Part shown: in pieces, positions 49,195 to 64,000 of the stretch
Numbering within the stretch: position 1 is the first letter of the stretch
Layout of the letters: every line of letters starts with the position of its first letter
Assembly (NCBI GenBank): GCA_913061005.1
Contig: CAJXSH010000005.1
Span: 1 to 64,000, forward strand
Direction of reading: 5' to 3'
Length of the DNA: 64,000 nucleotides
Source: an uncultured Ectothiorhodospiraceae bacterium
Lineage (GTDB): Bacteria > Pseudomonadota > Gammaproteobacteria > Nitrococcales > Nitrococcaceae
Translations under genes and position numbers: made by a program
Notes under the pieces: generated by a model
The model's input: only the letters and a program-made list of their open reading frames with translations
Database searches by the model: none
What the model was told of the DNA's origin: nothing

Positions 49195-50175
49195 TCAGCC
49201 TCCGGTCAGGGTCTGGGCCACCGCCAGGTACAGGGGAATCCCCAGGGTGAGGTTGAAAGGAAAGGTCACACCCAGTGAGAGCGTGAGATAGATTGACGGG
49301 TTGGCTTCCGGGAGGGCGACCCGCATGGCCGCTGGCACGGCGATGTAGGAGGCCGATGCCGCCAGCGTCATCAGCAACAAAACCCCGCCGGTACTCAGCC
49401 CGATCAGCAATCCCGCCCCCAGACCGGTGACAGAACCGATCAGTGGCATGATCACGCCAAAGGCGAAGAGGCCGGGCGTGAGGACCGATCGCGCCTCGCG
49501 CAGTCCACGGCCGGCGACAAGCCCCATATCGAGCAGGAACAGGCAAAGCACCCCCTGGAAAGGCGCCACGATAAACGGCTCGATGAGCGTCAGGCCCTCG
49601 TCACCGGTGATCCAGCCGATCAGAAACGAGCCAACGAGCAGGACGATCGAGCCATTCAGCAGGATTTCGCGGATCAGGCCTTCCTCCATTTCGGCGGACG
49701 CCGGGCTGGAGCGGGCGATGATCCACAGCGCCGAGAGGATGGCCGGTGCCTCCATGACCGCGGCCACCGCGACCATGTATCCCTCGGGCGAGAGGCCGGC
49801 GGTGGTGGCCACAGAGCTGGCCGCCACAAACGTGACGATCGAAATCGAGCCATAGTGACCGGCAACCGCGGCCGCGTCGGTGACCGAAAGCCGGGTCATT
49901 CCCTTGAGCAGGGCATAGGCGATGACCGGCAGGGCGAACGAGAGCACCAGCCCCGCCAGCAATGACAGCGCCAGTGTCCCGTCAACGCCGTGGGAGGCAA
50001 CGCTGGCACCGCCCTTGAAGCCGATGGCAAAAAGCAGATAGATCGACAACCCTTTGGCGATGGCCTCGGGGATGGACAGATCGGAGCGCGCGAATGCGGC
50101 GATGACCCCGAGGACGAAAAACAGAATGATCGGCGATGTCAGGTTGTCCATCGCCAGCGCCAGTGTCCCTTGCAT
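49195..50175 (-). CDS. sbtA: Sodium-dependent bicarbonate transporter SbtA
   Basis: Inner-membrane protein of 326 aa with about ten helices in two inverted halves (PF05982). SPIILFFVLGVIAAFARSDL at the start and AAAVAGHYGSISIVTFVAA in the core match SbtA, a Na+/HCO3- symporter. No carboxysome or RuBisCO gene is in the window, so the bicarbonate probably feeds anaplerotic or biosynthetic carboxylases. Operon with sbtB. Divergent from the DUF423 gene by 64 bp. Confidence 0.92.
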   Translation of the reverse strand: MQGTLALAMDNLTSPIILFFVLGVIAAFARSDLSIPEAIAKGLSIYLLFAIGFKGGASVASHGVDGTLALSLLAGLVLSFALPVIAYALLKGMTRLSVTDAAAVAGHYGSISIVTFVAASSVATTAGLSPEGYMVAVAAVMEAPAILSALWIIARSSPASAEMEEGLIREILLNGSIVLLVGSFLIGWITGDEGLTLIEPFIVAPFQGVLCLFLLDMGLVAGRGLREARSVLTPGLFAFGVIMPLIGSVTGLGAGLLIGLSTGGVLLLMTLAASASYIAVPAAMRVALPEANPSIYLTLSLGVTFPFNLTLGIPLYLAVAQTLTGG

Positions 50176-50239
50176 TGTTATGATGTCTGCCTGTTGCGAT
50201 CAAAAGGTGGCAGATTACCTTAGCCTGACAGGGGTTTGC

Positions 50240-50632
50240 ATGCGTTCTCTTCTACTCATTGCCGGTCTGCTTGGCCTGCTCTCGGTGGGGTTTGGTGCCT
50301 GGTCCGAGCACGCCCTGCGTCCGAATATCGACGCCGAGTCGTTTCGTTTTCTCATGACGGCGATTCGCTATAACCAGGTGCATGCCGTTGCCTTGCTGGC
50401 GCTTGCCCTTGGGCTGGTGTTGCCGCTTGGCACCGATGTCATCAAGCGCCTGCGCATTGGTGCCTGGTTGATGGTCTGGGGCACGGTGCTCTTCAGTGTG
50501 AGCATCTACCTTGCGGTCTGGAGCGGGATGATGATCCTGACCTTCGTCACACCGGTGGGCGGCACCCTGCTCATGATCGCCTGGGCCGCGGTGGCTTGGG
50601 CGGGCTGGACCGCCTGGCGGGCCGATCGCTAG
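50240..50632 (+). CDS. DUF423 family membrane protein
   Basis: Membrane protein of 130 aa with four hydrophobic segments and the DUF423 pattern (FGAWSEHALRP, then AIRYNQVHAVALLALAL, and VTPVGGTLLMIAWAAVAWA), a YgdD-like family of unknown function. ATG at 50240 follows AGGGG. It is convergent with blh, with 12 bp between the stops. Confidence 0.88.
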   Translation: MRSLLLIAGLLGLLSVGFGAWSEHALRPNIDAESFRFLMTAIRYNQVHAVALLALALGLVLPLGTDVIKRLRIGAWLMVWGTVLFSVSIYLAVWSGMMILTFVTPVGGTLLMIAWAAVAWAGWTAWRADR

Positions 50633-50644
50633 CCGCCCCGAGGG

Positions 50645-51523
50645 TCACTCGCTCCGTCGGGGGCTGGCAATGAGCTCGAGGATCATGTGCGGCACGGTCA
50701 GCGCGGCCAGGCCAATGAAGATCACTCGCATGAGCACGGCATCGCTGGGCAGGCCGATGAGAAACGGGACCGCCGCCAGGGCGAGGGCGTAGGTGGCGAG
50801 GGTCGTGGGGGCAACCGCGCGCAACCGCTCGCGCCAGCCATACAGCCCCAGGTCTCGCGCGGCGATTTCAAGATGGCGTGGGCTGTGTAGAAAGCACCAG
50901 TAGGCGATGAAGTACGCCAGCGGATGAAGCAGCGCGGCGGTGACCGCCAGCAGCAGCGGGTCGCGCCAGTCGCTGACCGACCGCTCGGGCCGCAGCGCCA
51001 GGCTGGCGGCGAGAATCAGACCCCCTATGGCGAGGACCCAGGGGCCGGTGGCGACGATTGTCGCGGCCTGGTCGGCCCCGAGCATTTCGAGAATCGGGGT
51101 CACTTGCGCCGGCTGCAGCGCGACCGGCAGTCCGATGATCCACAATCCATAGCCGACCCCCCCGATCCGGCCCAGCCGGTTGGCGACATCATCGCCGAAA
51201 TGCACGGCCGAGTAGAGCAGGAACGCCGCGAGCGCCGCATTGGGCGCCAGCCACCATAATCCCAGCACCAGCGCGGCGAGCAGCATGTAACCGCCAAGAA
51301 ACATCATCATGCGCAGCGGGTTGTCCAAATGCAGATAGCGTGTCGCCACCGCGGTGTCGAGGCTGCCATGGGGCAGGCCCAGAACCGCGGTGCTCAGGGC
51401 CAGCACCATATAAAGCGGCCACTGCCCCGGCAGCATGGAAGCCCCCATGGCCAGCACGACACCGGCGGGAAAAAGCCAGAAGGCGGGCGGATGGTTGTTC
51501 TGCGAACGGGGGGATGTGCTCAT
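50645..51523 (-). CDS. blh: Beta-carotene 15,15'-dioxygenase (Brp/Blh family)
   Basis: Membrane enzyme that cleaves beta-carotene to two retinals, 292 aa, with about eight hydrophobic segments. The conserved histidine sites of the family are visible: LGLPHGSLDT, SAVHFGDDV, CFLHSPRHLE and LTVPHMILEL. Start ATG 51523; a TTG at 51544 is also in frame. The gene is about 5 kb from the opsin and on the same strand, and it completes the retinal pathway with crtEIBY. Confidence 0.95.
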   Translation of the reverse strand: MSTSPRSQNNHPPAFWLFPAGVVLAMGASMLPGQWPLYMVLALSTAVLGLPHGSLDTAVATRYLHLDNPLRMMMFLGGYMLLAALVLGLWWLAPNAALAAFLLYSAVHFGDDVANRLGRIGGVGYGLWIIGLPVALQPAQVTPILEMLGADQAATIVATGPWVLAIGGLILAASLALRPERSVSDWRDPLLLAVTAALLHPLAYFIAYWCFLHSPRHLEIAARDLGLYGWRERLRAVAPTTLATYALALAAVPFLIGLPSDAVLMRVIFIGLAALTVPHMILELIASPRRSE

Positions 51524-51686
51524 CGCCAACTCACCAACAATCAACTGTCATTGCCCAGAGCCTAGCAGCATCGATCGGTGTCAAACATTAATCCCGATCA
51601 ACCCGGGTTGCGGTTTTGCTAATCTGACATGACCGCCCACGGGGATCGTCGCCCCGGGGTCAGTCAGCAGGGATGGGCACCAAGCA

Positions 51687-52376
51687 ATGACGAAGACGCG
51701 GTCAACGCCACACACCACCGCCACCGAGCGGGTCTATCGGGCGATTCGCCGGAACATCCTCGAGGGGGTCTACGACGGCGAACAGTTCCTCCGCGAAGAG
51801 GGCCTGGCCCGGGAATTCCAGATCAGTCGTACGCCCATACGCGAGGCCCTTCGGCGGCTGGTTTCCGAAGGGTGGCTCGAGCAGATTCCCCACCGGGGGG
51901 CGCGGGTTGTCGAGTGGACACGTGACGACGCCGACGAGGTGTTCGAGCTGCGCAGCATTCTCGAATCCCACGCGGTCCGCCGTGCCGCCACCCGGATGCA
52001 ACCACGCGAGATTGCCCGGCTGCGTCATCTGGTGGATGCCATGGAGTCACTGAGCAGCGCGCAGCAAAGCGAAAGCCGCGAAGATATCGCAACGCTCAAC
52101 GACCAGTTTCATCAAACCATCCTTGAATCGGCCGGCAGCCCGCGGCTCCAGCGTCTGGTCAATGCCATCGTTCAGGCGCCAATGACCACACGCAGTTTTC
52201 ACCGCTACAACGCCAGCGAAATGGCGCGCAGCATGACGCAGCACCGCGAAATCCTGCAGGCCATCGAAGCCGGGGATCCGGTCTGGGCCGCGGCGGTCAT
52301 GCGTTCGCATATTCTCGCGGCCCGACCGGCCCATCACCGCAGCGACGCGCCGCTGACCGAGTCGTCCCACCGCTGA
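51687..52376 (+). CDS. GntR-family (FCD/VanR subgroup) transcriptional regulator
   Basis: Regulator of 229 aa: winged HTH (about 10-78; REEGLAREFQISRTPIREALRRLVSEGWLEQ) and an all-helical FCD ligand domain (about 85-215) with metal-binding histidine candidates (DQFHQTIL, MTQHREILQAI, SHIL). It lies 124 bp upstream of, and on the same strand as, the aconitase-like catabolic operon, so it is the likely local repressor. The effector is presumably the imported organic acid or an intermediate. Confidence 0.9.
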   Translation: MTKTRSTPHTTATERVYRAIRRNILEGVYDGEQFLREEGLAREFQISRTPIREALRRLVSEGWLEQIPHRGARVVEWTRDDADEVFELRSILESHAVRRAATRMQPREIARLRHLVDAMESLSSAQQSESREDIATLNDQFHQTILESAGSPRLQRLVNAIVQAPMTTRSFHRYNASEMARSMTQHREILQAIEAGDPVWAAAVMRSHILAARPAHHRSDAPLTESSHR

Positions 52377-52439
52377 ACTGCATACAATGCTGCATCCGCA
52401 CATCGAAAAACCTGAACAATCAGGGTTAATGGCTTGCAA

Positions 52440-52451
52440 ATTGTATCCAAT
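52440..52451. promoter_or_regulatory. Candidate GntR operator ATTGTATCCAAT
   Basis: Imperfect palindrome close to ATTGTATACAAT, a pattern seen at FCD-family GntR sites. It lies 50 bp before the aconitase-like start. A second copy of the half-site ATTGTAT, in inverted orientation, occurs at 52382-52388. Confidence 0.45.
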
Positions 52452-52500
52452 CAAGAGAACCTCTCCGAAAATCCAAAAATAATCGTTCGGAGGAGGGCGC

Positions 52501-54459
52501 ATGGCGGGCAAAACCCTGAGCGCCAGGCTTATCGAGGATCATCTCGTCGAAGGTCGGGCCAGAGCCGGAGAAGAGATCGCACTGCGCATGGACCAGGCGT
52601 TGCTGCAGGACATCCTCGGGACGCTGGTCATGCTCGAGCTCGAGGCCATGGGGGTCGAGCGCGCGGTGCCGCAGCCCACGGTCCAGTACATCGACCATGA
52701 CCTGGTTCAGCAGGGGCCGTTGACCGCGGATGCCCACCGGTTCCTGAAAAGCGCCTGTGAACGGTTCGGCATCTGGTACAGCGGCCCGGGCAACGGCATC
52801 AGCCATCCGGTGCACATGGAACACTTCGGCGTACCCGGCCAGTCCCTGGTGGGGTCGGACAGTCACACCACGGCGGCCGGATCACTGGGGATGCTCGCGA
52901 TCGGAGCCGGCGGGATCGAGGTGGCGCTTGCCATCGCCGGTGAACCCCTGGTGTTGCAGATGCCACGCATCTGGGGCGTCGAGCTGACGGGGCATCTGCC
53001 CGAGTGGGTCTCGGCCCGGGATGTGGCACTGGAGCTTCTACGGCGCCATGGCGTTGCCGGTGCCAAGAACTGCATCCTCGAGTTCTACGGACCCGGCGTT
53101 GCCTCTTTGTCGGCGATGGATCGGCATATCATCGCCAATATGGGCACCGAGATGGGGGCGACGACAAGCGTTTTCCCCAGCGATGACAACACCCGACGCT
53201 TTCTGGCTGCCCGGGGCCGCGAGGCCGTCTGGCAACCGCTCTGCGCCGACTCGGACTGTGTCTACGACCTGCACGAGCAGATCGACCTCTCGGCGCTGGA
53301 GCCTCTGATTGCCCTGCCATCCAGCCCGGGTAACGTCGTGCCGGTGACCGAAGCGGTCGGTGCCCCGGTCTATCAAAGCTACATCGGATCCTCGGGCTGC
53401 CCCGGCTACAGCGAGTTCGCCACGGTGGCCGGGATCCTGGATGACCGGCCAAGTGCCGAGGGGGTGTCGCTGGATATCAATCCCAGCACCCGACAGGTGC
53501 TGGGGGCGATGATCGAATCCGGCGCACTGGCCCGACTGGTTCAGGCGGGCGCGCGGATTCATCAGGCCGGCTGCAATGGCTGCATCGGCATGGGGCAGGC
53601 GCCGGCACAGGGCCAGAACAGTCTGCGGACGGTCCCGCGGAATTTTCCCGGACGATCCGGTACACCCGAAGACAGCGTGTTTTTATGCAGCGCCGAGACC
53701 GCGGCCGCCTCGGCGATCACTGGCACGATCACCGATCCGAGGACGCTGGACATCGCCTATCCACGGGTTGCCGAACCGGATCGCCTGCCGGCGGCGGATG
53801 CCGGGCTCAAAGCCCCGGCGGGCCCGGGCGGGGCCGCCCGACCCGAGCTTGCCATCAGTGACAACACCCCGCCGCTGCCAGCGCTCCAGCCGCTGCCTGA
53901 CTCGCTCGACGTGCCGATCCTGCTGACGGTCGGCGATGATATCAGCACCGACGACATCATGCCGGCAGGCACGGCGATCCCTTACTGGTGCAACGTCCAC
54001 GCCTCGGCGCGTTTTCTTTTTGCCCCCATCGATGCCGGCTACCCGGAAAAGGCGGCTGATGTCGCTGACGCCGGCGGCCATGCCATTGTCGGGGGGGATA
54101 ATTACGGACAGGGCTCAAGCCGCGAGAATGCCGCCCTGGTGCCAGCCTTGCAGGGCCTGAAGGTCGTCGTGGCCAGGAGCTTTGCCCGGCTGCATTGGCA
54201 GAACCTCGTCTGTTTTGGCGTCCTGCCGCTCTCGCCGGCCGATGAAACGGCTGCCAGGCGGCTCGAGGCGGGCGGTCGACTGCGCTTCGACGACATCCAC
54301 GGCCAGCTTGCCGCCGGCAACACCGTGAACGCTCATCTCGATGGCGAGCCGATTGCCCTTGTCCACGAGCTCACCGATCGCCAGCGCGAACTGCTGTGGA
54401 TGGGGGGCGTCATCAACCGTATCAAACAACAGAGGATTGAGGCCGATGGGGCCGCTTGA
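52501..54459 (+). CDS. Aconitase-family hydratase
   Basis: Aconitase superfamily protein of 652 aa with the fused small (swivel) domain, as in mitochondrial-type aconitases. Substrate motifs GSDSHTTAAGSLG (118-130), NFPGRSG (381-387), GDDISTDDIMPAG and the swivel GGDNYGQGSSREN are present. Fe-S ligands Cys358 and Cys361 (AGCNGCIG) are present, but the first ligand motif, normally IGSCTNS, reads IGSSGCPG, shifting the Cys by two residues (Cys300). ATG follows GGAGGAGG. First gene of a catabolic operon, so a substrate other than citrate is likely. Confidence 0.85.
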   Translation: MAGKTLSARLIEDHLVEGRARAGEEIALRMDQALLQDILGTLVMLELEAMGVERAVPQPTVQYIDHDLVQQGPLTADAHRFLKSACERFGIWYSGPGNGISHPVHMEHFGVPGQSLVGSDSHTTAAGSLGMLAIGAGGIEVALAIAGEPLVLQMPRIWGVELTGHLPEWVSARDVALELLRRHGVAGAKNCILEFYGPGVASLSAMDRHIIANMGTEMGATTSVFPSDDNTRRFLAARGREAVWQPLCADSDCVYDLHEQIDLSALEPLIALPSSPGNVVPVTEAVGAPVYQSYIGSSGCPGYSEFATVAGILDDRPSAEGVSLDINPSTRQVLGAMIESGALARLVQAGARIHQAGCNGCIGMGQAPAQGQNSLRTVPRNFPGRSGTPEDSVFLCSAETAAASAITGTITDPRTLDIAYPRVAEPDRLPAADAGLKAPAGPGGAARPELAISDNTPPLPALQPLPDSLDVPILLTVGDDISTDDIMPAGTAIPYWCNVHASARFLFAPIDAGYPEKAADVADAGGHAIVGGDNYGQGSSRENAALVPALQGLKVVVARSFARLHWQNLVCFGVLPLSPADETAARRLEAGGRLRFDDIHGQLAAGNTVNAHLDGEPIALVHELTDRQRELLWMGGVINRIKQQRIEADGAA

Positions 54460-55636
54460 GGGGATTCGTGTACTGGAGCTCGGTCAGCTGATCGCCGGGC
54501 CGTTCTGTGGACAGTATCTGGCCGATTTCGGCGCCGAGGTGGTGAAGGTCGAGCCCCCGGGCCGCGGCGATCCCATGCGTCAGTGGGGCAGCACCGATGC
54601 GCATGGCAACACGGTGTGGTGGCCGGTCATCGCCCGCAATAAACGCTCGATGACGCTGGACCTGCGCACCGAGGCCGGCCAGGCGGTGATCCGCGAGCTG
54701 GCCGCTCAGGTCGATGTCATCATCGAGAACTTCCGGCCCGGAACCATGGAGCGCTGGGGGCTTGGCTACGAGGCACTCAGCGAGATCAATCCCCGGCTTG
54801 TCATGGTGCGTATCACCGGCTTTGGCCAGACCGGTCCTTATGCCACCCGCGCCGGGTATGCCTCGGTCTGCGAGGCGATGGGCGGGATGCGCTACATCGC
54901 TGGCTACCCGGATCGCCCGCCGGTGCGTATGGGCATTTCCATCGGTGACACCCTGGCCGGCATGCACGGTGCAATGGGCGCGATGATGGCCCTGCACGAA
55001 CGCCACCGAAGCGGGCGTGGCCAAGTGGTGGACAGCGCCATTTATGAATCGGTCATGACCGTGATGGAAAGCCTCATTCCCGAATACGAAAAAACCGGCC
55101 GCATCCGCGAGCGTTCGGGCAGCCGGCTCGATGGCATCGCCCCGTCCAACGCCTACCCGTGTCGGGATGGCCGTGAGGTGGTGATCGGCGCCAACCAGGA
55201 TACGGTCTTTCGCCGGCTCTGCGAGGCGATGGGTGCCCCGGAACTGGCGGATGACCCGCGCTACATCGATCATCAGTCGCGGGGCCGCAATCAGGACGCC
55301 CTGGATGCCCGGATCGCCGACTGGACCCGAGCGCACGATGCCGATGAGATCGTCGAGCGGATGGCCGAGGCCGGCGTGCCGGCCGGCCATGTCTATCGCG
55401 CCCCGGAGATGCTGGCGGACCCGCACATGCAGGCCCGCGAATCCATTGTCCGCATGCAGGATGCCCGACTGGGTGAAATCCCCATGCAGAATGCCTTTCC
55501 GCGGCTGTCGCGCTCGCCCGGTTGTATCGAACACACCGGCCCCGCACTTGGTGAGCACACCCGAGAGGTACTGCAGGACTGGGCCGCCATGACCCCCGAG
55601 CACATTGAGCGGCTCGCCGAGCAGGGAGTGATCTAG
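54446..55636 (+). CDS. Class III CoA-transferase (CaiB/BaiF family)
   Basis: Family III acyl-CoA transferase, 396 aa. Catalytic Asp168 lies in ISIGDTLAGMHG. N-terminal PLEGIRVLELGQLIAGPFCG and VDVIIENFRPGTMERWGLGY are family hallmarks. It overlaps the aconitase-like gene by 14 bp and is followed directly by the TRAP genes. It presumably moves CoA from succinyl-CoA or another donor onto the imported or hydrated acid. Confidence 0.93.
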   Translation: MGPLEGIRVLELGQLIAGPFCGQYLADFGAEVVKVEPPGRGDPMRQWGSTDAHGNTVWWPVIARNKRSMTLDLRTEAGQAVIRELAAQVDVIIENFRPGTMERWGLGYEALSEINPRLVMVRITGFGQTGPYATRAGYASVCEAMGGMRYIAGYPDRPPVRMGISIGDTLAGMHGAMGAMMALHERHRSGRGQVVDSAIYESVMTVMESLIPEYEKTGRIRERSGSRLDGIAPSNAYPCRDGREVVIGANQDTVFRRLCEAMGAPELADDPRYIDHQSRGRNQDALDARIADWTRAHDADEIVERMAEAGVPAGHVYRAPEMLADPHMQARESIVRMQDARLGEIPMQNAFPRLSRSPGCIEHTGPALGEHTREVLQDWAAMTPEHIERLAEQGVI

Positions 55637-56926
55637 ATGGAAGTCGCCATTGTGGTGGTCCTTTTGCTGGCCATGATCGTGGCCGGTGCGCCGATCTTCC
55701 TTGCGCTCGGGGCCGCCGGGTTGCTGGGGCTTTATCTGGAGCGCGGCGGACTGGCGCTGTTCTTCGCCCCCACCTCGGCGTTCGGACAGCTCAATAGCTT
55801 TGAGCTCATCGCCCTGCCGCTTTTCATTCTCATGGGCAATTTTCTCGCGGCCACACCCATTGGCAGCTATCTTTTTCACGCCGCGGTGTGCTGGCTGAGT
55901 TGGCTGCGCGGTGGCCTGGCCATTGCATCGGTCGGGGCATCGGCACTGTTCGGTGCGGTCAGCGGCGTGAGCATTGCCGGTGTCGCCGCGGTCGGCGGCA
56001 TTGCCGTGCCCGAGATGCTAAAGCGCGGCTACTCCCGCCCCCTCGCCTCGGGGGCGGTGGTCAGCGCCGGGGCGCTGGCCATGCTCATCCCGCCAAGTGT
56101 GCCGTTTATCATCTACGGGGCGGTCTCCGGGGTTTCGGTGGCCGATCTTTTCATTGGCGGTATCGTGCCGGGGCTGGCCCTGGCGACGGCGCTTTCGGCC
56201 TATATCTATTTTCGGGTGCTGAGAAACCCCCACGAGGCACCGGCCAACGAGACGGCCATTTCATGGCGCGAGCGGGTCAAAAGCCTCGGGGGCATCTGGC
56301 ATGCGGCGGTATTGATCATCGCCGTGCTCGGGTCGATCTATACCGGCGTGGCCACCCCCAGCGAAGCGGCCGCGGTGGGGGCGGTGGGGGCGTTTCTCAT
56401 CGCCGCGGTGATCTTCCGGGCGCTGCCGCCGAAACGCATCGGCGAGATTCTCTTGCAAACGGCGAAGGTCAGTGGCGCGATCCTGCTGATCATGGCCTGC
56501 GCCAAGATCTTCGGGGACTACATGAACTTCATGCGCGTCCCGCAGATGCTCACCGATGCGCTGACCGCCACCGACCTGCCGCCGTGGGCGATTTTCACCG
56601 CCATTATGATCTTGCTCGTTCTACTTGGCATGCTCGTCGATGCGGTTTCCCTCATCGTGGTGACCACGCCCATCCTGCTGCCCCTGGTCACGGCGTTGGG
56701 CTATGACCCGCTGTGGTTTGGCATCGTGCTTGTGATGAACCTCGAGATCGCCGTGGTCACGCCCCCGGTGGGGCTGAACCTCTACGCGCTCCGCGGCGTC
56801 TGTCCGCAACTGTCGGTGGAAGAGATCATCGCAAGCGTTGTGCCGTTTGTTCTGGTTCAGTTCGCAGTACTCATGCTTTTCGTGTTGGTTCCGGAAATCA
56901 GTCTCTGGTTGCCGGGGCTGCTTTAG
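55637..56926 (+). CDS. dctM: TRAP transporter large permease (DctM family)
   Basis: Large membrane subunit, 429 aa, with about twelve helices. Family patterns GSSALFGAVSGVSIAGVAAVGGI-like region, LIPPSVPFIIYGAVSGVSVADLFIGGIVPG and PPVGLNLYALRGV are visible. It starts immediately after the CoA-transferase stop. It forms a Na+-driven secondary importer with the binding protein and small permease downstream. Confidence 0.94.
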   Translation: MEVAIVVVLLLAMIVAGAPIFLALGAAGLLGLYLERGGLALFFAPTSAFGQLNSFELIALPLFILMGNFLAATPIGSYLFHAAVCWLSWLRGGLAIASVGASALFGAVSGVSIAGVAAVGGIAVPEMLKRGYSRPLASGAVVSAGALAMLIPPSVPFIIYGAVSGVSVADLFIGGIVPGLALATALSAYIYFRVLRNPHEAPANETAISWRERVKSLGGIWHAAVLIIAVLGSIYTGVATPSEAAAVGAVGAFLIAAVIFRALPPKRIGEILLQTAKVSGAILLIMACAKIFGDYMNFMRVPQMLTDALTATDLPPWAIFTAIMILLVLLGMLVDAVSLIVVTTPILLPLVTALGYDPLWFGIVLVMNLEIAVVTPPVGLNLYALRGVCPQLSVEEIIASVVPFVLVQFAVLMLFVLVPEISLWLPGLL

Positions 56927-56958
56927 TTCGGGAAAAAAGAGAGAGAGAGGAGAGATCG

Positions 56959-58005
56959 ATGACCATCAAACGACGGGATTTTCTCAAGTATTCCGGCACC
57001 CTGGGGGCGGCCGCGGCGGTTGCCGGCCCGACGGCGCTTTGGTCGCCCTGGGCGCGGGCGCAGCAGACGTTCACCGGTGTGACCTATCTGCCCCAGTCCT
57101 ACAAGGCGCTGTCCTACGGCTCGAACGGGTTCGTGGACTTTCTCAAAAGCGAGGGCAGCGATGTTTTCAATGTCGAGTTCTATGACTCGGGACAGCTTCT
57201 CAAGGCCGATGAGCAGCTGCCGGCACTGCGGGCGGGGAACATCGATTTCATGTTCCACACCACCTCGTATGTGACCCGTTCGCTGCCGATTCTTGGCATT
57301 ACCGGGCTGCCCGGTGTGGTGGGTGAGCTCTACCGCAACCCCGAGCGCCTTGCCATGGGGTCGCCGTTGTTCGAGCTCATCAACGAAGAGTTGGGCAAGG
57401 AGGATCTGCACATGATCTCGGCCGGCCGGGGCATCCTCGAGCCAGAGTATATCTGGAGCGGGCCGGACAACCCGGTCCGATCGCTGGAGGATCTGCGCGG
57501 CAAGAAGGTGCGAATCGTCAGCTTCGAGGCCACTCAGGCGCTTGAGGCCTATGACGTGGCGGCGGTGCGGATTCCCTCATCCGAGACCTACGTCGCGCTG
57601 CAGCGTGGCACCATCGATGCAGCCATCATGAATATCTCGACGGTGGTCGGCCGCAGCCTCCAGGAGCAGTACGCGTATTGCTACAAACTGCCCACGACGG
57701 CATTTACCGTCGCGCCGTTCGTGCTCAAACGCACCTGGGAGAACATGGGCTCGGAGCAACGTGAGCTGCTTGAGGCCGCGGGTCGGTGGTATGACGATAA
57801 TTTCGCCAGCCACTGCAACGATGTCATCTATGGTCAGGAGTACTGGCCGTTGATGGCGGATGCCGGTATCGAGATGATCGAGCCCTCGGGCGAGGATCTG
57901 CAGGCGCTCTCGCAAGCGGCTCAGTCGGTCCGCGATGCCTGGGTCGAAGAGGTCGGCACCGAGGTGGGTGAACGGGCCATTGCACTGGCCATGGGCGAGG
58001 CATGA
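56959..58005 (+). CDS. dctP: TRAP transporter substrate-binding protein (DctP family), Tat-type signal
   Basis: Periplasmic binding protein, 348 aa, with a twin-arginine-like signal (KRRDFLKYSG) ending near ARAQQ. The core RGKKVRIVSFEATQALEAYDVAAVRIPSSETYVALQRGTIDA region holds the conserved Arg that clamps a carboxylate ligand. ATG at 56959 follows GGAGAG. Unlike most TRAP operons, this gene sits between the large and small permease genes. It overlaps dctQ by ATGA. Confidence 0.93.
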   Translation: MTIKRRDFLKYSGTLGAAAAVAGPTALWSPWARAQQTFTGVTYLPQSYKALSYGSNGFVDFLKSEGSDVFNVEFYDSGQLLKADEQLPALRAGNIDFMFHTTSYVTRSLPILGITGLPGVVGELYRNPERLAMGSPLFELINEELGKEDLHMISAGRGILEPEYIWSGPDNPVRSLEDLRGKKVRIVSFEATQALEAYDVAAVRIPSSETYVALQRGTIDAAIMNISTVVGRSLQEQYAYCYKLPTTAFTVAPFVLKRTWENMGSEQRELLEAAGRWYDDNFASHCNDVIYGQEYWPLMADAGIEMIEPSGEDLQALSQAAQSVRDAWVEEVGTEVGERAIALAMGEA

Positions 58006-58550
58006 CCGGCAGTCACTCGGTAATAATGGCTCAACCTCCGCGCCTGTGGCGGAGGTTGAGCCAGTTGCTCATTGTCGGCGGCCAGGTGGTGCTGGCTTTC
58101 ATGGCGTTGACGATTTTCTACGACGCGATGATGCGGCATTTCTTTGCCATGCCCACCAGCTGGAGTCTGGAGGTCAATCAGTTTTTGCTCGTCTACCTGG
58201 GGCTGGCCACCGCCGGTGAAATCCAGCGCGATGAGTCGCATATCCGTATTGAATTCTTTGCCAATCACCTGCCCTGGCGGGTAAGAACGGTTCTGGAGGC
58301 CTTCGTGGCCGCGGTGGGGGTGGCCTTTTGTGCGGTGCTCGCCTGGCGTGGCGGGATCATCGCCTGGCAAGCCTTTGAATATGGCGAGCGGGTCTCGAGC
58401 GCATTCGGAACCCCCCTGGTGTTTCCGTATTCCATCATTCCTCTTGGATTCACCATGCTGGGGATTCAGTTTGCGATCCAGTTCTTCGCCAAGGGCCATG
58501 CGGCGGTGGTCGGGGATCACGCGACACGGACGGGTCACGGCAATGCTTGA
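58002..58550 (+). CDS. dctQ: TRAP transporter small permease (DctQ family)
   Basis: Small membrane subunit, 182 aa, with four helices and the DctQ pattern (FYDAMMRHFFAMPTSWSLEVNQFLLVYLG, DESHIRIEFFANHLP). Start overlaps the binding-protein stop by ATGA; its end overlaps the lyase gene by 8 bp. Confidence 0.92.
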   Translation: MTGSHSVIMAQPPRLWRRLSQLLIVGGQVVLAFMALTIFYDAMMRHFFAMPTSWSLEVNQFLLVYLGLATAGEIQRDESHIRIEFFANHLPWRVRTVLEAFVAAVGVAFCAVLAWRGGIIAWQAFEYGERVSSAFGTPLVFPYSIIPLGFTMLGIQFAIQFFAKGHAAVVGDHATRTGHGNA

Positions 58551-59469
58551 GCGTATCGAGCCGGTGGAAATCGTCGAGGTCGCCCCGCGGGATGGCTTCC
58601 AGTCGATCCGCGAGCCCATCGGTACCGAGGCGAAGATCGAGATGATCAATGCCCTGGCCCGGGCGGGCTGTCAGCGTATCGAGGCGGGATCATTCGTCAG
58701 CCCGAAGGCGATCCCGCAGATGGCCGACATGGGGGCGATCGCCGCGGGGATCGAACGCCCGGCGCAGGTCCGCTTCATGGTGCTTGTGCCCAACCGCAAG
58801 GGCATTGAGCTTGCGCTTGCAAATGGGTTTGATGAGTTCGGCTACGTGCTCTCGGTCTCGGAATCCCATAACCAGAACAATGTCCGCCGCAGCGTGGATG
58901 ATTCGATGCAAGACTTGGCCAGTCTTGTGGACTGGCTTTCGGCCCAGGGCAAGGGCTGGCGGCTCAGGGTCAATCTGGCTACCAGTTTTGATTGCCCGTT
59001 TGACGGGCGGCAGTCGCTGCAAGCCCTCACCGCCCGGGTGCGCGAGGTACAGTCCATCATTAGCGATGCCGAAATCGCCCTTTGTGATACCACCGGGCGC
59101 GCCAACCCCCGGCAGGTGGCCGAGGCCTTTGCCCGGGTGCAGGCGGACAGCCCGGATGGCCGCACCCGATGGGCCTTTCATGGTCATGACACCTACGGGC
59201 TGGGGGTGGCCAACGCCCTGGCCGCCTATGAAGCGGGTGTGCGGCGATTCGATGCCGCCGCAGCCGGGCTTGGTGGTTGTCCATTCGCGCCGGGCGCCAC
59301 CGGCAATACCGCCACGGAAGACCTGGTTTTCGCCTTCGAGGCGTGTGGTATCAAAACAGGGATTGATATCGACCGTCTGACTGCGATCGCCGATCGGATT
59401 GCCGCTATCCCCGGCGGTGTAGTGGCAAGCCACATCCGGCATGTGCCAAGGGAGCGGCTGCACGCGTAG
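58543..59469 (+). CDS. Hydroxymethylglutaryl-CoA lyase-family enzyme
   Basis: DRE-TIM aldolase-type lyase, 308 aa. Metal and catalytic sites: Arg16-Asp17 in EVAPRDGFQ, His213 and His215 in FHGHDTYG, and the HMG-CoA lyase signature GLGGCPFAPGATGN with catalytic Cys246. The family cleaves HMG-CoA to acetoacetate and acetyl-CoA; related members act on citramalyl-CoA or other 3-hydroxy-3-methyl acyl-CoAs. Last gene of the cluster. Leucine-degradation genes are absent here, so the substrate is probably the CoA-ester made by the linked CoA-transferase. Confidence 0.9.
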   Translation: MLERIEPVEIVEVAPRDGFQSIREPIGTEAKIEMINALARAGCQRIEAGSFVSPKAIPQMADMGAIAAGIERPAQVRFMVLVPNRKGIELALANGFDEFGYVLSVSESHNQNNVRRSVDDSMQDLASLVDWLSAQGKGWRLRVNLATSFDCPFDGRQSLQALTARVREVQSIISDAEIALCDTTGRANPRQVAEAFARVQADSPDGRTRWAFHGHDTYGLGVANALAAYEAGVRRFDAAAAGLGGCPFAPGATGNTATEDLVFAFEACGIKTGIDIDRLTAIADRIAAIPGGVVASHIRHVPRERLHA

Positions 59470-59901: not shown

Positions 59902-60627
59902 CTAGTCGATGCCGCGGTGGGTGCCGCGTGCATCGGCGTCGAGATGCGTGGTGTCGTTAAACCGCTGAATCCGGCAATGGTAGGAGTTGAGCGCGCCGGC
60001 CGATGCCGTCTGGCGGTGATAGGCCTTGCGATTGATGTGGAATTCAAAGATCGCGGTGTTCCCCGGCCGGATGCCCCAGACACGCGGCGTGCCAAGCAGC
60101 GCGGCGATGAGATACTGCAGAAAGCCGCCATGGGTGATGCCCACGACGGCCTGTTGATCATCGTGGTTGTTGATGAGCTGATCGATTGCCGATCGTGCCC
60201 GGTTTGATCGTTGTTGCAGTGGCTCGGCGTCGGGCACGGCATCCCAGTCGCGGTGTTGGGCAAAGTGGCGCGCCACATCCGGGTGCTGGGCTTCGAGTTC
60301 GGCCCAGGTATGACCCGAGAAAACACCCACATCGTATTCGCGCAGCGCCTCCAGGGTCTCAACGGGCTGTCCAATGGCCGCGGCGAGCGGTTGGGCGGTG
60401 GCCTGGGCCCGCCCCAGCGGTGAGCTGTAGACCACGACCGGGTTGGCCGATGGATGCGTCGAGTGCGGTGGTTGGCCGATCTCGGCGCCGAGGTATCCGG
60501 CGACCGCCTCGGCCAACCGCGCCGTCTGGGCATGGCCAAGCGCGCTGAGCGGGAAATCACTATGCCCTTGCCAGCGTCCTTCGTGGTTGGCCGTGGTCTG
60601 GGCGTGGCGGATGAGTAGGAGTTTCAT
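59902..60627 (-). CDS. Histidine phosphatase family protein
   Basis: Phosphoglycerate-mutase-like phosphatase, 241 aa. Catalytic RHAQT motif at 7-11 (LLIRHAQTTANHEGRWQGH), SSPLGRAQATA, acidic Glu in LREYDVGVFSGHTW and the second His in GITHGGFLQYL are intact. It may act on small phosphorylated metabolites. ATG at 60627 is preceded by GGAG-like sequence further out. Confidence 0.88.
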   Translation of the reverse strand: MKLLLIRHAQTTANHEGRWQGHSDFPLSALGHAQTARLAEAVAGYLGAEIGQPPHSTHPSANPVVVYSSPLGRAQATAQPLAAAIGQPVETLEALREYDVGVFSGHTWAELEAQHPDVARHFAQHRDWDAVPDAEPLQQRSNRARSAIDQLINNHDDQQAVVGITHGGFLQYLIAALLGTPRVWGIRPGNTAIFEFHINRKAYHRQTASAGALNSYHCRIQRFNDTTHLDADARGTHRGID

Positions 60628-61704: not shown

Positions 61705-62427
61705 CTAGGTCAACTGATCGGCAAGGTAGATCCGGAGGCGCTGGGCGGCGTTGAGCAGATGCCGTTGGGAGGCAAGCCGCGCCGCCTCTGCATTGCCTGC
61801 GGCAATGGCCGCCTCGATGGCCTCGTGCTCCTGCTGTACCTCTGCCATGAGCGACTCCGCCTGCCTGGCCGTGTTGGTTCGCGCCTTGCGAATGAAGCCG
61901 CGAACCCGGTTTTCGAGAAAGTCTCCGAAGTCGATGAAATACTCGTTGTGCGTGGCCTTGAGGATGGCGCGATGGAAGGCGACGTCCTCCGAGACGCCAT
62001 CCTCGCGGGCGTCAACCGCTCGAGCCAGTGCTCGCAGTGCACCGTTGATCGCGGCAAGATCCCTGTCGGTCCGGCGCTGCGCGGCATAACCCGCAGCGGC
62101 GGATTCGACCGACACCAGAAACTCGATCAGTTCGGAGAGGTTTTCGCCATCGCCGAGGTCGGCATCCAGCCGGAATACACTGCTGCCCTCCGGATTGACA
62201 AACTGCCCCAGCCCCTGATGCGAGATCACCAGCCCGTCGGACTTGAGCAGCGAGATCGCCTCGCGGATCACCGAACGGCTGACGCCATACATCTCGCCCA
62301 ATACGGCCTGGGTGGGGAGTTGCTCACCGGGCTCGAACCGCCCATCCGCGATGCTGGCCCGCAGCCGTCTTGCAATGATTGCCGGCAGCCCCCCGGGCCG
62401 CTGTATCGGTTGTTCGCCCCCGGACAT
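61705..62427 (-). CDS. FadR-type GntR transcriptional regulator
   Basis: Regulator of 240 aa: winged HTH (about 15-85; LPTQAVLGEMYGVSRSVIREAISLLKSDGLV) plus FCD domain (about 95-230). The HTH resembles PdhR/LldR-type regulators. It follows the SDR gene by 35 bp on the same strand, and divergent to both lies an E1 alpha gene. It could control this cluster, and possibly the TTGGTCTGACCAA site upstream of glcD (speculative). Confidence 0.88.
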   Translation of the reverse strand: MSGGEQPIQRPGGLPAIIARRLRASIADGRFEPGEQLPTQAVLGEMYGVSRSVIREAISLLKSDGLVISHQGLGQFVNPEGSSVFRLDADLGDGENLSELIEFLVSVESAAAGYAAQRRTDRDLAAINGALRALARAVDAREDGVSEDVAFHRAILKATHNEYFIDFGDFLENRVRGFIRKARTNTARQAESLMAEVQQEHEAIEAAIAAGNAEAARLASQRHLLNAAQRLRIYLADQLT

Positions 62428-62462
62428 CAGCGTCTCTATGCTCCTCTTGTGCGTGCGGGATC

Positions 62463-63206
62463 TCAGCTGTGAAGATATAACCCGCCATTCACCTGTAATG
62501 TCTCCCCGGTCATAAAAGCAGCTGCCGGGCTGGAGAGAAACACCGCCACATCCGCCACTTCCTCGGCGGAACCCAATCGCCCGAGCGGTGTTGCTGCAAT
62601 CATTGCCTCTCTGCGGCCGGTGTCAAGCGCGCGCACCATTCCGGTGTCGATCAGCCCCGGTGATATGTTATTTACGCGCGTATGCGGCGCCAGTTCCTGC
62701 GCGAGGCTGCGTGTCAGGGTGAGCACGCCCCCTTTGGCGGCCGCGTAGGGCGTATGTGACACGCTGCCACGGTGGCCGGCAAGGGAGGCAATGTTGATCA
62801 CGGCACTGCCTTTGGCCAGCAGGGGCCGCAATGCCTGTACCGTGTAGAAAACGCCATCAAGGTTGACCGCCAGACTGCGGCGCCAGGCGGTTTCGTCCAC
62901 CGTTTCAAGGTGCAGTTCTTCGTACAGGCCGGCGCAGCAGATGACGGTGTCGACCTGACCGAGATGGTGTTCACAGACCGTTGCCACCGCCCGGGCCGCC
63001 TCCATTGAGGTAACGTCATGCGCCGTCACGGTGATTCGGGCATGGGCGGGCAGACGGTTGCGAACCTCATCCAGACGGGTGGCGTTGAGGTCGGTCAGCA
63101 CCAGCCTGGCGCCGGCGGCGGCGTAGCGCTGCGCCATGGCAAAGCCGATTTCTCCGGCAGCACCGGTGATAACGACGCGTTCTGATTGAGCAGGATGCGT
63201 GCTCAC
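62463..63206 (-). CDS. Short-chain dehydrogenase/reductase
   Basis: Classical SDR of 247 aa: cofactor loop VVITGAAGEIGFAMA, Asp in LVLTDLNA (suggesting NAD), catalytic Ser in NIASLAGHRG and Tyr-x3-Lys in YAAAKGG; C-terminal MTGETLQVNGGLYL is typical. The start is GTG at 63206 with GGAG upstream; the longer open frame to 63350 overlaps the divergent gene. Substrate unknown; linked to a 2-oxoacid or acetoin dehydrogenase E1-type gene. Confidence 0.86.
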   Translation of the reverse strand: MSTHPAQSERVVITGAAGEIGFAMAQRYAAAGARLVLTDLNATRLDEVRNRLPAHARITVTAHDVTSMEAARAVATVCEHHLGQVDTVICCAGLYEELHLETVDETAWRRSLAVNLDGVFYTVQALRPLLAKGSAVINIASLAGHRGSVSHTPYAAAKGGVLTLTRSLAQELAPHTRVNNISPGLIDTGMVRALDTGRREAMIAATPLGRLGSAEEVADVAVFLSSPAAAFMTGETLQVNGGLYLHS

Positions 63207-63239
63207 GATGGCTCTCCTCGCTGTGCTTTGACGGTTATG

Positions 63240-63264
63240 TTTGTATGATAATCTGATCCACAAA
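63240..63264. promoter_or_regulatory. Imperfect inverted repeat in the SDR/E1 divergent promoter
   Basis: TTTGT and ACAAA arms flank an inner ATGAT...GATC pattern, centred in the 89-bp region between the SDR and E1 alpha start codons. A possible site for the linked GntR regulator. Confidence 0.35.
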
Positions 63265-63295
63265 AGCAACGAGTAGGCCGGAGAGAGCAGAGCCC

Positions 63296-64000
63296 ATGCC
63301 CACATCCCAGCCGTTGGGCGCATCAGCACCCTGGGTGGAATTGGCCACAACGGCCGATGACTGGAAGCACGCAGACCCCACGCTTCTGGGTACCACGCTG
63401 GTGAGCCTGCATTTGATCCGGGCCTTCGAGGAGGCGGTCCTCGAGCTCGTGAGCAAGGGGCTTGTTCACGGCCCGGCTCACTCGAGCATTGGCCAGGAGG
63501 GGGGAGCGGTGGCGTCGGCCCTGGCGCTTCGCGCCAGCGACCAGATCAACGGTTCGCATCGCGCGCATCACCAGTTCCTGGCAAAAGCGCTGCACTATCT
63601 GCATCCGGGCGGCATGGCGCTGTCTGCACCAGTCAGTGACGATACGCAGGCACTGCTCCAGCGCACACTTGCCGAAATCATGGGACTGGCGCAGGGGTTC
63701 TGCCGCGGCCGGGGCGGGTCGATGCATCTGCGCTGGGCCGAGGCCGGAGTGCTGGGCACCAATGCCATTGTCGGTGGTGGTGTGCCCATGGCCGCCGGGG
63801 CGGCATGGGCCCATCGGCGCGCTGGGGAGGGCGATGTGGCCGTGACGTACTTCGGTGACGGCGCCGTCAACATCGGCTCGGTACTCGAGACCATGAACCT
63901 GGCCGCCGCCTGGAAGCTGCCCCTTTGTTTTTTCATCGAAAACAACCGCTACGCCGTGTCCACCGAGGTCAGTGAGGTTACTGCTGATTCCCGGCTCTCT
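63296..64000 (+). CDS. Thiamin-diphosphate dehydrogenase E1 alpha subunit (partial, cut by window end)
   Basis: First 235 codons of an E1 alpha protein of the acetoin, pyruvate or branched-chain 2-oxoacid dehydrogenase type. It has GQEGGAVASALAL and HRAHHQFLAKAL segments, RGRGGSMHLRW and the ThDP motif GDGAVNIGSVLETMNLAAAW ending in ENN. ATG at 63296 follows GGAGAGAGCAGAG. The N-terminal extension of about 35 residues is longer than in AcoA. Downstream E1 beta and E2 genes are expected beyond the window. Confidence 0.88.
   Translation, partial: MPTSQPLGASAPWVELATTADDWKHADPTLLGTTLVSLHLIRAFEEAVLELVSKGLVHGPAHSSIGQEGGAVASALALRASDQINGSHRAHHQFLAKALHYLHPGGMALSAPVSDDTQALLQRTLAEIMGLAQGFCRGRGGSMHLRWAEAGVLGTNAIVGGGVPMAAGAAWAHRRAGEGDVAVTYFGDGAVNIGSVLETMNLAAAWKLPLCFFIENNRYAVSTEVSEVTADSRLS

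Follow-up and report, generated by a model that had tools for sequence, protein, structure and literature searches.

Which compound does the seven-gene cluster at positions 51,687–59,469 of contig CAJXSH010000005.1 take up, and how is it broken down? The window analyzed here is the first 64,000 nucleotides (nt) of this contig, part of a metagenome-assembled genome (MAG; GCA_913061005.1) of a salt-loving, Spiribacter-like bacterium (1.65 Mb, 37 contigs, 84.7% complete). All seven genes lie on the plus strand, and Pfam and NCBIfam profiles agree on their families and order: a GntR regulator, an aconitase-family hydratase, a class III coenzyme A (CoA) transferase, the large permease, solute-binding protein and small permease of a tripartite ATP-independent periplasmic (TRAP) transporter, and a lyase of the hydroxymethylglutaryl-CoA lyase (HMGL) family. 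This bears out the gene list of an earlier note made from the DNA letters, and the gene set supports its picture of a self-contained module for import, hydration, CoA transfer and C–C cleavage. On the sequence evidence, we consider it rather probable that the cluster is an operon for the breakdown of citraconate and/or (R)-citramalate. The gene set, its synteny, the residue pattern of the enzymes and a conserved operator-like site are observed directly.

The favored route can be outlined as follows. The GntR/FCD regulator would control the operon through a TTGNATNCAA-like operator, and the TRAP system DctPQM would import citraconate and/or (R)-citramalate. The aconitase-family protein, with Trp in place of Arg580, would hydrate citraconate, or isomerize 3-methylmalate, to (R)-citramalate. 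Hydration would precede CoA transfer: the class III CoA-transferase may form (R)-citramalyl-CoA, probably from succinyl-CoA, and the HMGL-family lyase would split it into acetyl-CoA and pyruvate. Itaconate and mesaconate are degraded through (S)-citramalyl-CoA; the route proposed here would be the (R)-configured equivalent.

The hydratase (52,501–54,459, plus strand) is a single-chain protein of the PRK07229 type (NF005558, 782 bits, cut-off 612), predicted to act as a citraconate/(R)-2-methylmalate hydratase. In an alignment to mitochondrial aconitase read by eye, Q72, D100, H101, H147, D165, S166, H167, N258, E262, C421, C424, R447, R452, D568, S642, S643 and R644 are kept, which covers most of the catalytic residues of aconitase, whereas N170, C358, N446 and R580 are replaced. 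Arg580 is the residue that grips the γ-carboxylate of citrate and isocitrate, and a housekeeping aconitase should retain it; here the column holds Trp. Loss of Arg580 therefore suggests a substrate without a γ-carboxylate, i.e., a 2-alkylmaleate or 2-alkylmalate, of which citraconate/citramalate would be the smallest. An aconitase catalytic core without the presumed γ-carboxylate Arg is what a citraconase would be expected to show. Hydration of citraconate by the aconitase/isopropylmalate-isomerase fold is expected to give the (R) enantiomer. The earlier note's proposal would have been countered by a hydratase working only as housekeeping aconitase in a genome with no other; two further PF00330 proteins occur in the host genome, with frames of 979 (C1:187487) and 548 residues, which by length look like AcnA and LeuC, so that the hydratase is not the sole member of its family. 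Specificity in the small subunit of isopropylmalate isomerase is set by a substrate-recognition region beside the conserved GSSRE motif, according to a passage in PMC7308503.

Across 70 aligned hydratase rows, the Arg580 column holds Trp in 34, Arg in 35 and a residue left unassigned in one (L030); the alignment omitted L023, whose 309-residue frame lies on a contig of 5 kb, and L024, at 33% identity. The 34 Trp rows represent 33 distinct ones, since L033 duplicates L048 in both genome and cluster and was excluded from the tree. In that tree of 33 Trp and 35 Arg rows, the Trp rows form one clade with a support of 100/100, and on this topology Trp has one origin rather than having arisen by repeated convergence. 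A CoA-transferase and a lyase lie within 8 kb of the hydratase in 32 of the 34 Trp rows, a count that overstates the linkage, as the majority of the Trp rows were retrieved by their lyase and are linked to it by construction. Neither enzyme was a neighbor in any of the 35 Arg rows within the same 8 kb, ten of which (L037, L039, L044, L046, L130, L131, L150, L152, L157 and L159) have less than 5 kb on one side. Because of the bias in the lyase-fetched rows, the fair test is offered by the hydratase-seeded searches. There, all three Trp rows were linked to both enzymes within 8 kb and none of the 33 Arg rows was; 25 of these Arg rows have 5 kb or more of sequence on either side. When genomes selected for having the cluster are included, 4/5 Trp rows and 0/35 Arg rows are linked. 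One linked Trp row, G352, was picked up in a draw of 369 genomes across the class, and the transferase and lyase homologs alongside it are divergent (50% and 43%, respectively).

Stand-alone relatives of the hydratase carry Arg580. Plasmid-borne copies (~52–56% identity) were considered as members of the same system and ruled out: 7 of the 30 listed matches were fetched (query coverage is 80% or more in 26 records), six have Arg580 and no CoA-transferase or lyase nearby, and the seventh is L030; the five annotated copies sit among unrelated genes. At the position of the first Fe–S cysteine, Cys358 (GSCTN), 49 of 51 hydratase rows have Ser instead (GSS), the others being L047, with GSC, and one row that was not read. 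As Ser occurs in Arg- and Trp-type rows alike, this change is not specific to the cluster.

The CoA-transferase gene, with its start corrected to 54,446, runs to 55,636 on the plus strand (PF02515, 449 bits), and its product is the only class III CoA-transferase match in the host genome. It contains Asp168 of the GISIGD motif, presumably the catalytic residue of the class, and is predicted to be a succinyl-CoA:(R)-citramalate CoA-transferase. Among solved chains it matches the CaiB/BaiF protein 4ed9 (255 bits), formyl-CoA transferase 10uh (240 bits) and succinate–hydroxymethylglutarate CoA-transferase 9br6 (226 bits).

The lyase gene (58,543–59,469, plus strand, start likewise corrected; PF00682; NF004283, 286 bits, cut-off 246) is predicted to encode an (R)-citramalyl-CoA lyase. 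R16, D17, E47, R142, H213, H215, C246 and N255, catalytic residues by analogy with human 3-hydroxy-3-methylglutaryl-CoA (HMG-CoA) lyase, are present and invariant across a 46-row alignment. Its AlphaFold model (pLDDT, the predicted local distance difference test score, 91.7) has as its best fold match 6nds, 42% identical in the Foldseek alignment, an Acinetobacter baumannii HMG-CoA lyase crystallized with CoA and 3-methylmalate; 2-isopropylmalate synthases are also among its fold relatives. The motif CDTTG is found in 44 of the 46 aligned rows, whereas the HMG-CoA lyases 1ydo, 1ydn, 2ftp and 2cw6 (between them human, Pseudomonas, Brucella and Bacillus) have GDTIG in the alignments. The transferase and lyase genes share the operon, here with the TRAP genes between them; a class III transferase with its Asp and an HMGL-family lyase with intact residues in one operon is what we take to define an (R)-citramalate pair. 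Passages of PMC6689899 describe the triose-phosphate isomerase (TIM)-barrel HMG-CoA lyases as (S)-HMG-CoA lyases and equate the (S)-citramalyl-CoA configuration with R at C3 of HMG-CoA; the HMGL family should therefore take (R)- and not (S)-citramalyl-CoA. The earlier note had viewed an HMGL-type lyase for citramalyl-CoA as a departure from known routes, which it probably is not, as (R)-citramalyl-CoA lyase (EC 4.1.3.46, EC denoting Enzyme Commission) and succinyl-CoA:(R)-citramalate CoA-transferase (EC 2.8.3.20) are catalogued (PMC8307300). The current names of the two clades, aconitate hydratase for that of the hydratase and HMG-CoA lyase for that of the lyase, are probably misleading.

Pairings of similar enzymes were examined on plasmids. 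Thirteen regions around transferase/lyase homologs were hand-picked from 50 listed matches, partly because they were on both lists, and 12 contain both enzymes. LeuC and leuD stand beside the pair in six of these 12 (Peribacillus, Cupriavidus necator pBB2, two Methylobacterium, Novosphingobium pLA3 and Geobacillus), which, for a hand-picked sample, is no estimate of frequency, and the single-chain hydratase was seen in none of the 12. Across the 80 listed loci described below, LeuC queries match only at the hydratase position. With LeuCD beside the pair in one setting and the hydratase in the other, the same place seems to be filled by two different branches of the aconitase superfamily. Isopropylmalate dehydratase turns citramalate into citraconate according to a passage of PMC5882075, which also cites, by title, a bacterial citraconase making D-citramalate. 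The leuC/leuD genes adjoining a class III CoA-transferase and an HMGL-family lyase on L162, L163 and L166–L169 are annotated as leucine biosynthesis; they are probably catabolic. L168 lies beside aromatic-degradation genes.

The neighborhood search that the earlier note had suggested was run on 80 listed loci (at least 80 exist), fetched from genome contigs by lyase similarity and scored with presence thresholds such as at least 60% identity for the CoA-transferase. Matches to all seven genes occur at one locus in 27 of the 80. The other six genes without the hydratase are found in 23, and three further loci lack both GntR and hydratase with the rest present. The lyase stands alone in 16 at the thresholds used, seven of which carry a CoA-transferase 41–46% identical, and the last 11 loci, a few of them limited by short contigs, show different incomplete combinations. 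The loci belong mainly to Halomonas and kin, Marinobacter, Aurantimonas and kin, Rhodobacterales and Rhodospirillales. In the close relative L048, an uncultured Spiribacter, the same seven genes stand in the same order, so the arrangement is not due to chance; G003, of the same genus, also carries the hydratase, with cluster identities the same as those of L048. The hydratase follows GntR in two Spiribacter genomes and lies between DctQ and the lyase in the full-set Halomonas, Marinobacter and Aurantimonas loci. The TRAP genes are swapped for TctC/TctA homologs in L065 and L073 and for another TRAP system in L067, so that transferase and lyase look like the catabolic core and uptake seems exchangeable.

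The hydratase itself is accessory within the genus (2/14 genomes at E ≤ 1e-50, the host included). Among 29 genomes with a hydratase-less locus, 25 yield no hydratase match at E ≤ 1e-100; of the other four, two encode a Trp-type copy away from the locus and two an Arg-type one. Most often, then, the core functions without this enzyme, as would be expected if (R)-citramalate were itself an import substrate and the hydratase added citraconate. Halomonas and Aurantimonas strains carry the cluster. A protein of the phosphoenolpyruvate (PEP)-mutase/isocitrate lyase (ICL) family is encoded just upstream of the CoA-transferase in Aurantimonas (L052:4636, L053:2870, L056:2867) and beside LeuCD in Methylobacterium (L166:3849–4733). 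Other products that the Pfam screen showed close to some loci were judged to be outside the module: a major facilitator superfamily (MFS) transporter, an AsnC regulator and a transketolase-like protein.

The regulator gene (51,687–52,376, plus strand; PF00392 and PF07729 above cut-off) is separated by 124 nt from the hydratase gene. Between them lies an operator-like palindrome, TTGTATCCAA (52,441–52,450, strand not assigned), the only site in the window within one mismatch of TTGTATACAA. The palindrome was sought in the 51 of the 80 listed loci with a GntR match near the CoA-transferase or hydratase, taking the best stretch by the operon start (the gap, the divergent gap or 300 nt upstream of GntR). 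It occurs with at most two mismatches in 51/51 loci and at most one in 36/51, whereas random 310-nt segments of the same loci reach these levels in 3.7% and 1.4% of 2040 draws, respectively; where GntR is co-directional with the operon two stretches were tried, making the chance rate somewhat higher, the pattern was chosen after the site in the window had been seen, and relatedness among the loci means that they are not independent samples. In L048, the nearest relative, the palindrome has two mismatches.

The transporter comprises the large permease DctM (55,637–56,926; PF06808, and TIGR00786 above cut-off), the solute-binding protein DctP with a twin-arginine signal (56,959–58,005, start corrected; PF03480 and PF10518) and the small permease DctQ (58,002–58,550; PF04290), all on the plus strand. 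The earlier description of the genes as overlapping largely holds: hydratase and CoA-transferase overlap by 14 nt, DctP and DctQ by 4 nt, and DctQ and lyase by 8 nt, and the CoA-transferase and DctM genes abut, but 32 nt lie between DctM and DctP, and the regulator gene stands apart as given above.

Several points weigh against the citraconate/(R)-citramalate reading. Substrates, step order, stereochemistry, CoA donor and regulation are all inferred, and the role of Arg580 is general background on aconitase, not a statement of the papers cited here. As the Trp rows form a single clade, the association of Trp with the CoA-transferase and lyase counts as one evolutionary event. Two Trp rows depart from it: L132 has neither enzyme alongside, its genome having a six-gene cluster elsewhere (L112), and L069, at a contig end, has just the lyase next to it. 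No closely related solved structure emerged for DctP, whose 50 listed fold matches are at most 21% identical, too distant to suggest a ligand. The best NCBIfam names for the CoA-transferase are succinate–glutarate and then succinyl-CoA:mesaconate CoA-transferase, both below cut-off, and a passage of PMC5592240 reports that neither (S)- nor (R)-citramalate was a substrate for the characterized Haloarcula mesaconate CoA-transferase, also of class III. Half of the plasmid pairs (6/12) are without LeuCD, and the LeuCD-linked lyases carry ADTIG, ADTTG or CDTIG, not CDTTG.

Larger 2-alkylmalates are also compatible with the data. A substrate such as 2-isopropylmalate, 2-ethylmalate or dimethylmalate, or the corresponding 2-alkylmaleate, would be isomerized, transferred to CoA and cleaved to acetyl-CoA and the matching 2-oxo acid. 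LeuC/LeuD in parallel clusters and the loss of Arg580 would suit any non-carboxylate side group, and 2-isopropylmalate synthases are fold relatives of the lyase. The PEP-mutase/ICL-family protein, which could be a 2-alkylmalate lyase, adjoins the CoA-transferase or LeuCD in the relatives named above. Since the bulky Trp suggests a small methyl pocket, the nearest solved lyase, 6nds, holds a C5 acid, and the activity catalogued in PMC8307300 is that of an (R)-citramalyl-CoA lyase, we regard these larger acids as unlikely, if not strikingly so. Some other small hydroxy-dicarboxylate, handled by enzymes of unexpected specificity, would agree with a DctP whose listed fold matches name no ligand and with the transporter swaps in L065, L073 and L067; it appears improbable given that the residue pattern, lyase family and LeuCD neighbors together point to 2-methylmalates.

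The earlier note had listed three kinds of candidates, of which citraconate/citramalate fits best. Its second, 3-hydroxy-3-methylglutarate/3-methylglutaconate, would call for a true HMG-CoA lyase, in keeping with the NF004283 HMG-CoA lyase subfamily score above cut-off, the transferase match to 9br6 (below those to 4ed9 and 10uh) and the succinate–glutarate family name. LeuCD beside the same enzyme pair and CDTTG in place of GDTIG argue against it and, to our knowledge, members of the aconitase superfamily act on vicinal dicarboxylates, not on glutaconates, which makes this route quite improbable. The third, aconitate derivatives, is disfavored by the change of Arg580 to Trp; the related idea of an enzyme that is still an aconitase, with citryl-CoA as the compound that is split, draws on the NCBIfam name, aconitate hydratase, and on Arg580 in the stand-alone relatives. 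With Arg580 gone throughout the cluster-linked clade, another aconitase-family protein in the genome and an aerobe with a tricarboxylic acid cycle presumably needing no citryl-CoA step, we consider it very improbable. A leucine-catabolic HMG-CoA lyase would be expected to have carboxylase genes alongside, and no methylcrotonyl-CoA carboxylase match was found by Pfam among the seven cluster genes and three neighboring open reading frames (ORFs), no genome-wide search having been made.

The predicted citraconate/(R)-citramalate route can be set beside several known systems. The same two reactions are predicted as for the EC 2.8.3.20/EC 4.1.3.46 pair of Chloroflexus aurantiacus. Work by Friedmann et al. 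from 2006 reportedly concerns a Chloroflexus class III transferase and HMGL-family lyase. That pair belongs to autotrophic carbon metabolism, while here the two enzymes would belong to a catabolic operon that also encodes a hydratase, TRAP importer and GntR regulator. Itaconate degradation clusters share the final conversion of citramalyl-CoA to acetyl-CoA and pyruvate, as described in passages of PMC12290011 and PMC6689899, but there CoA transfer comes first, followed by an itaconyl-CoA hydratase and a CitE-type lyase, with the opposite (S) enantiomer. As the earlier note had argued, the present gene set differs from that of Ict/Ich/Ccl, with an aconitase-family hydratase and an HMGL-family lyase; no CitE-type lyase (PF03328) matched at E ≤ 0.001 in the host genome, an absence that is not final in an 84.7% complete MAG. 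Mesaconate use in Burkholderia xenovorans, in the account excerpted from PMC4682846, likewise hydrates the free acid before the CoA-transferase and lyase act, but with a class I fumarase and the (S) enantiomer. Citraconase/isopropylmalate dehydratase (LeuCD) would share the citraconate–citramalate interconversion (a passage of PMC5882075, the citraconase being compared by title only); LeuCD has two subunits, whereas the PRK07229-family protein has one chain with Trp at the Arg580 column.

Our search of the open PMC literature found no paper on an operon of hydratase, class III CoA-transferase, HMGL-family lyase and TRAP transporter, an absence that carries little weight. The individual reactions are not new; the operon is known chemistry in a new variant combination. 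The fuller proposal, which we see as evenly poised, is that it encodes a complete (R)-citramalate/citraconate pathway mirroring itaconate degradation; the change of Arg580 to Trp would have turned a stand-alone aconitase into a citraconate hydratase, parallel to LeuCD recruitment for that step in other bacteria, with the patchy spread over Gamma- and Alphaproteobacteria suggesting horizontal transfer. If true, genes and a transporter could be assigned to citraconate/(R)-citramalate catabolism, and the clades now named aconitate hydratase and HMG-CoA lyase would receive a function. It would also be a compact example of how specificity shifts within the aconitase superfamily, and, with TRAP uptake, citraconate/citramalate would serve as a carbon source drawn from the environment in saline waters.

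Just upstream of the cluster, at 49,195–51,544, ORFs encode an Sbt_1 bicarbonate transporter and a Blh-type β-carotene dioxygenase (retinal synthesis), the latter at 50,645–51,544 on the minus strand in the Pfam scan. Downstream, the same scan places a histidine-phosphatase-family ORF at 59,902–60,627 on the minus strand. A second GntR/FCD regulator adjoins a short-chain dehydrogenase at 61,705–63,350, also on the minus strand.

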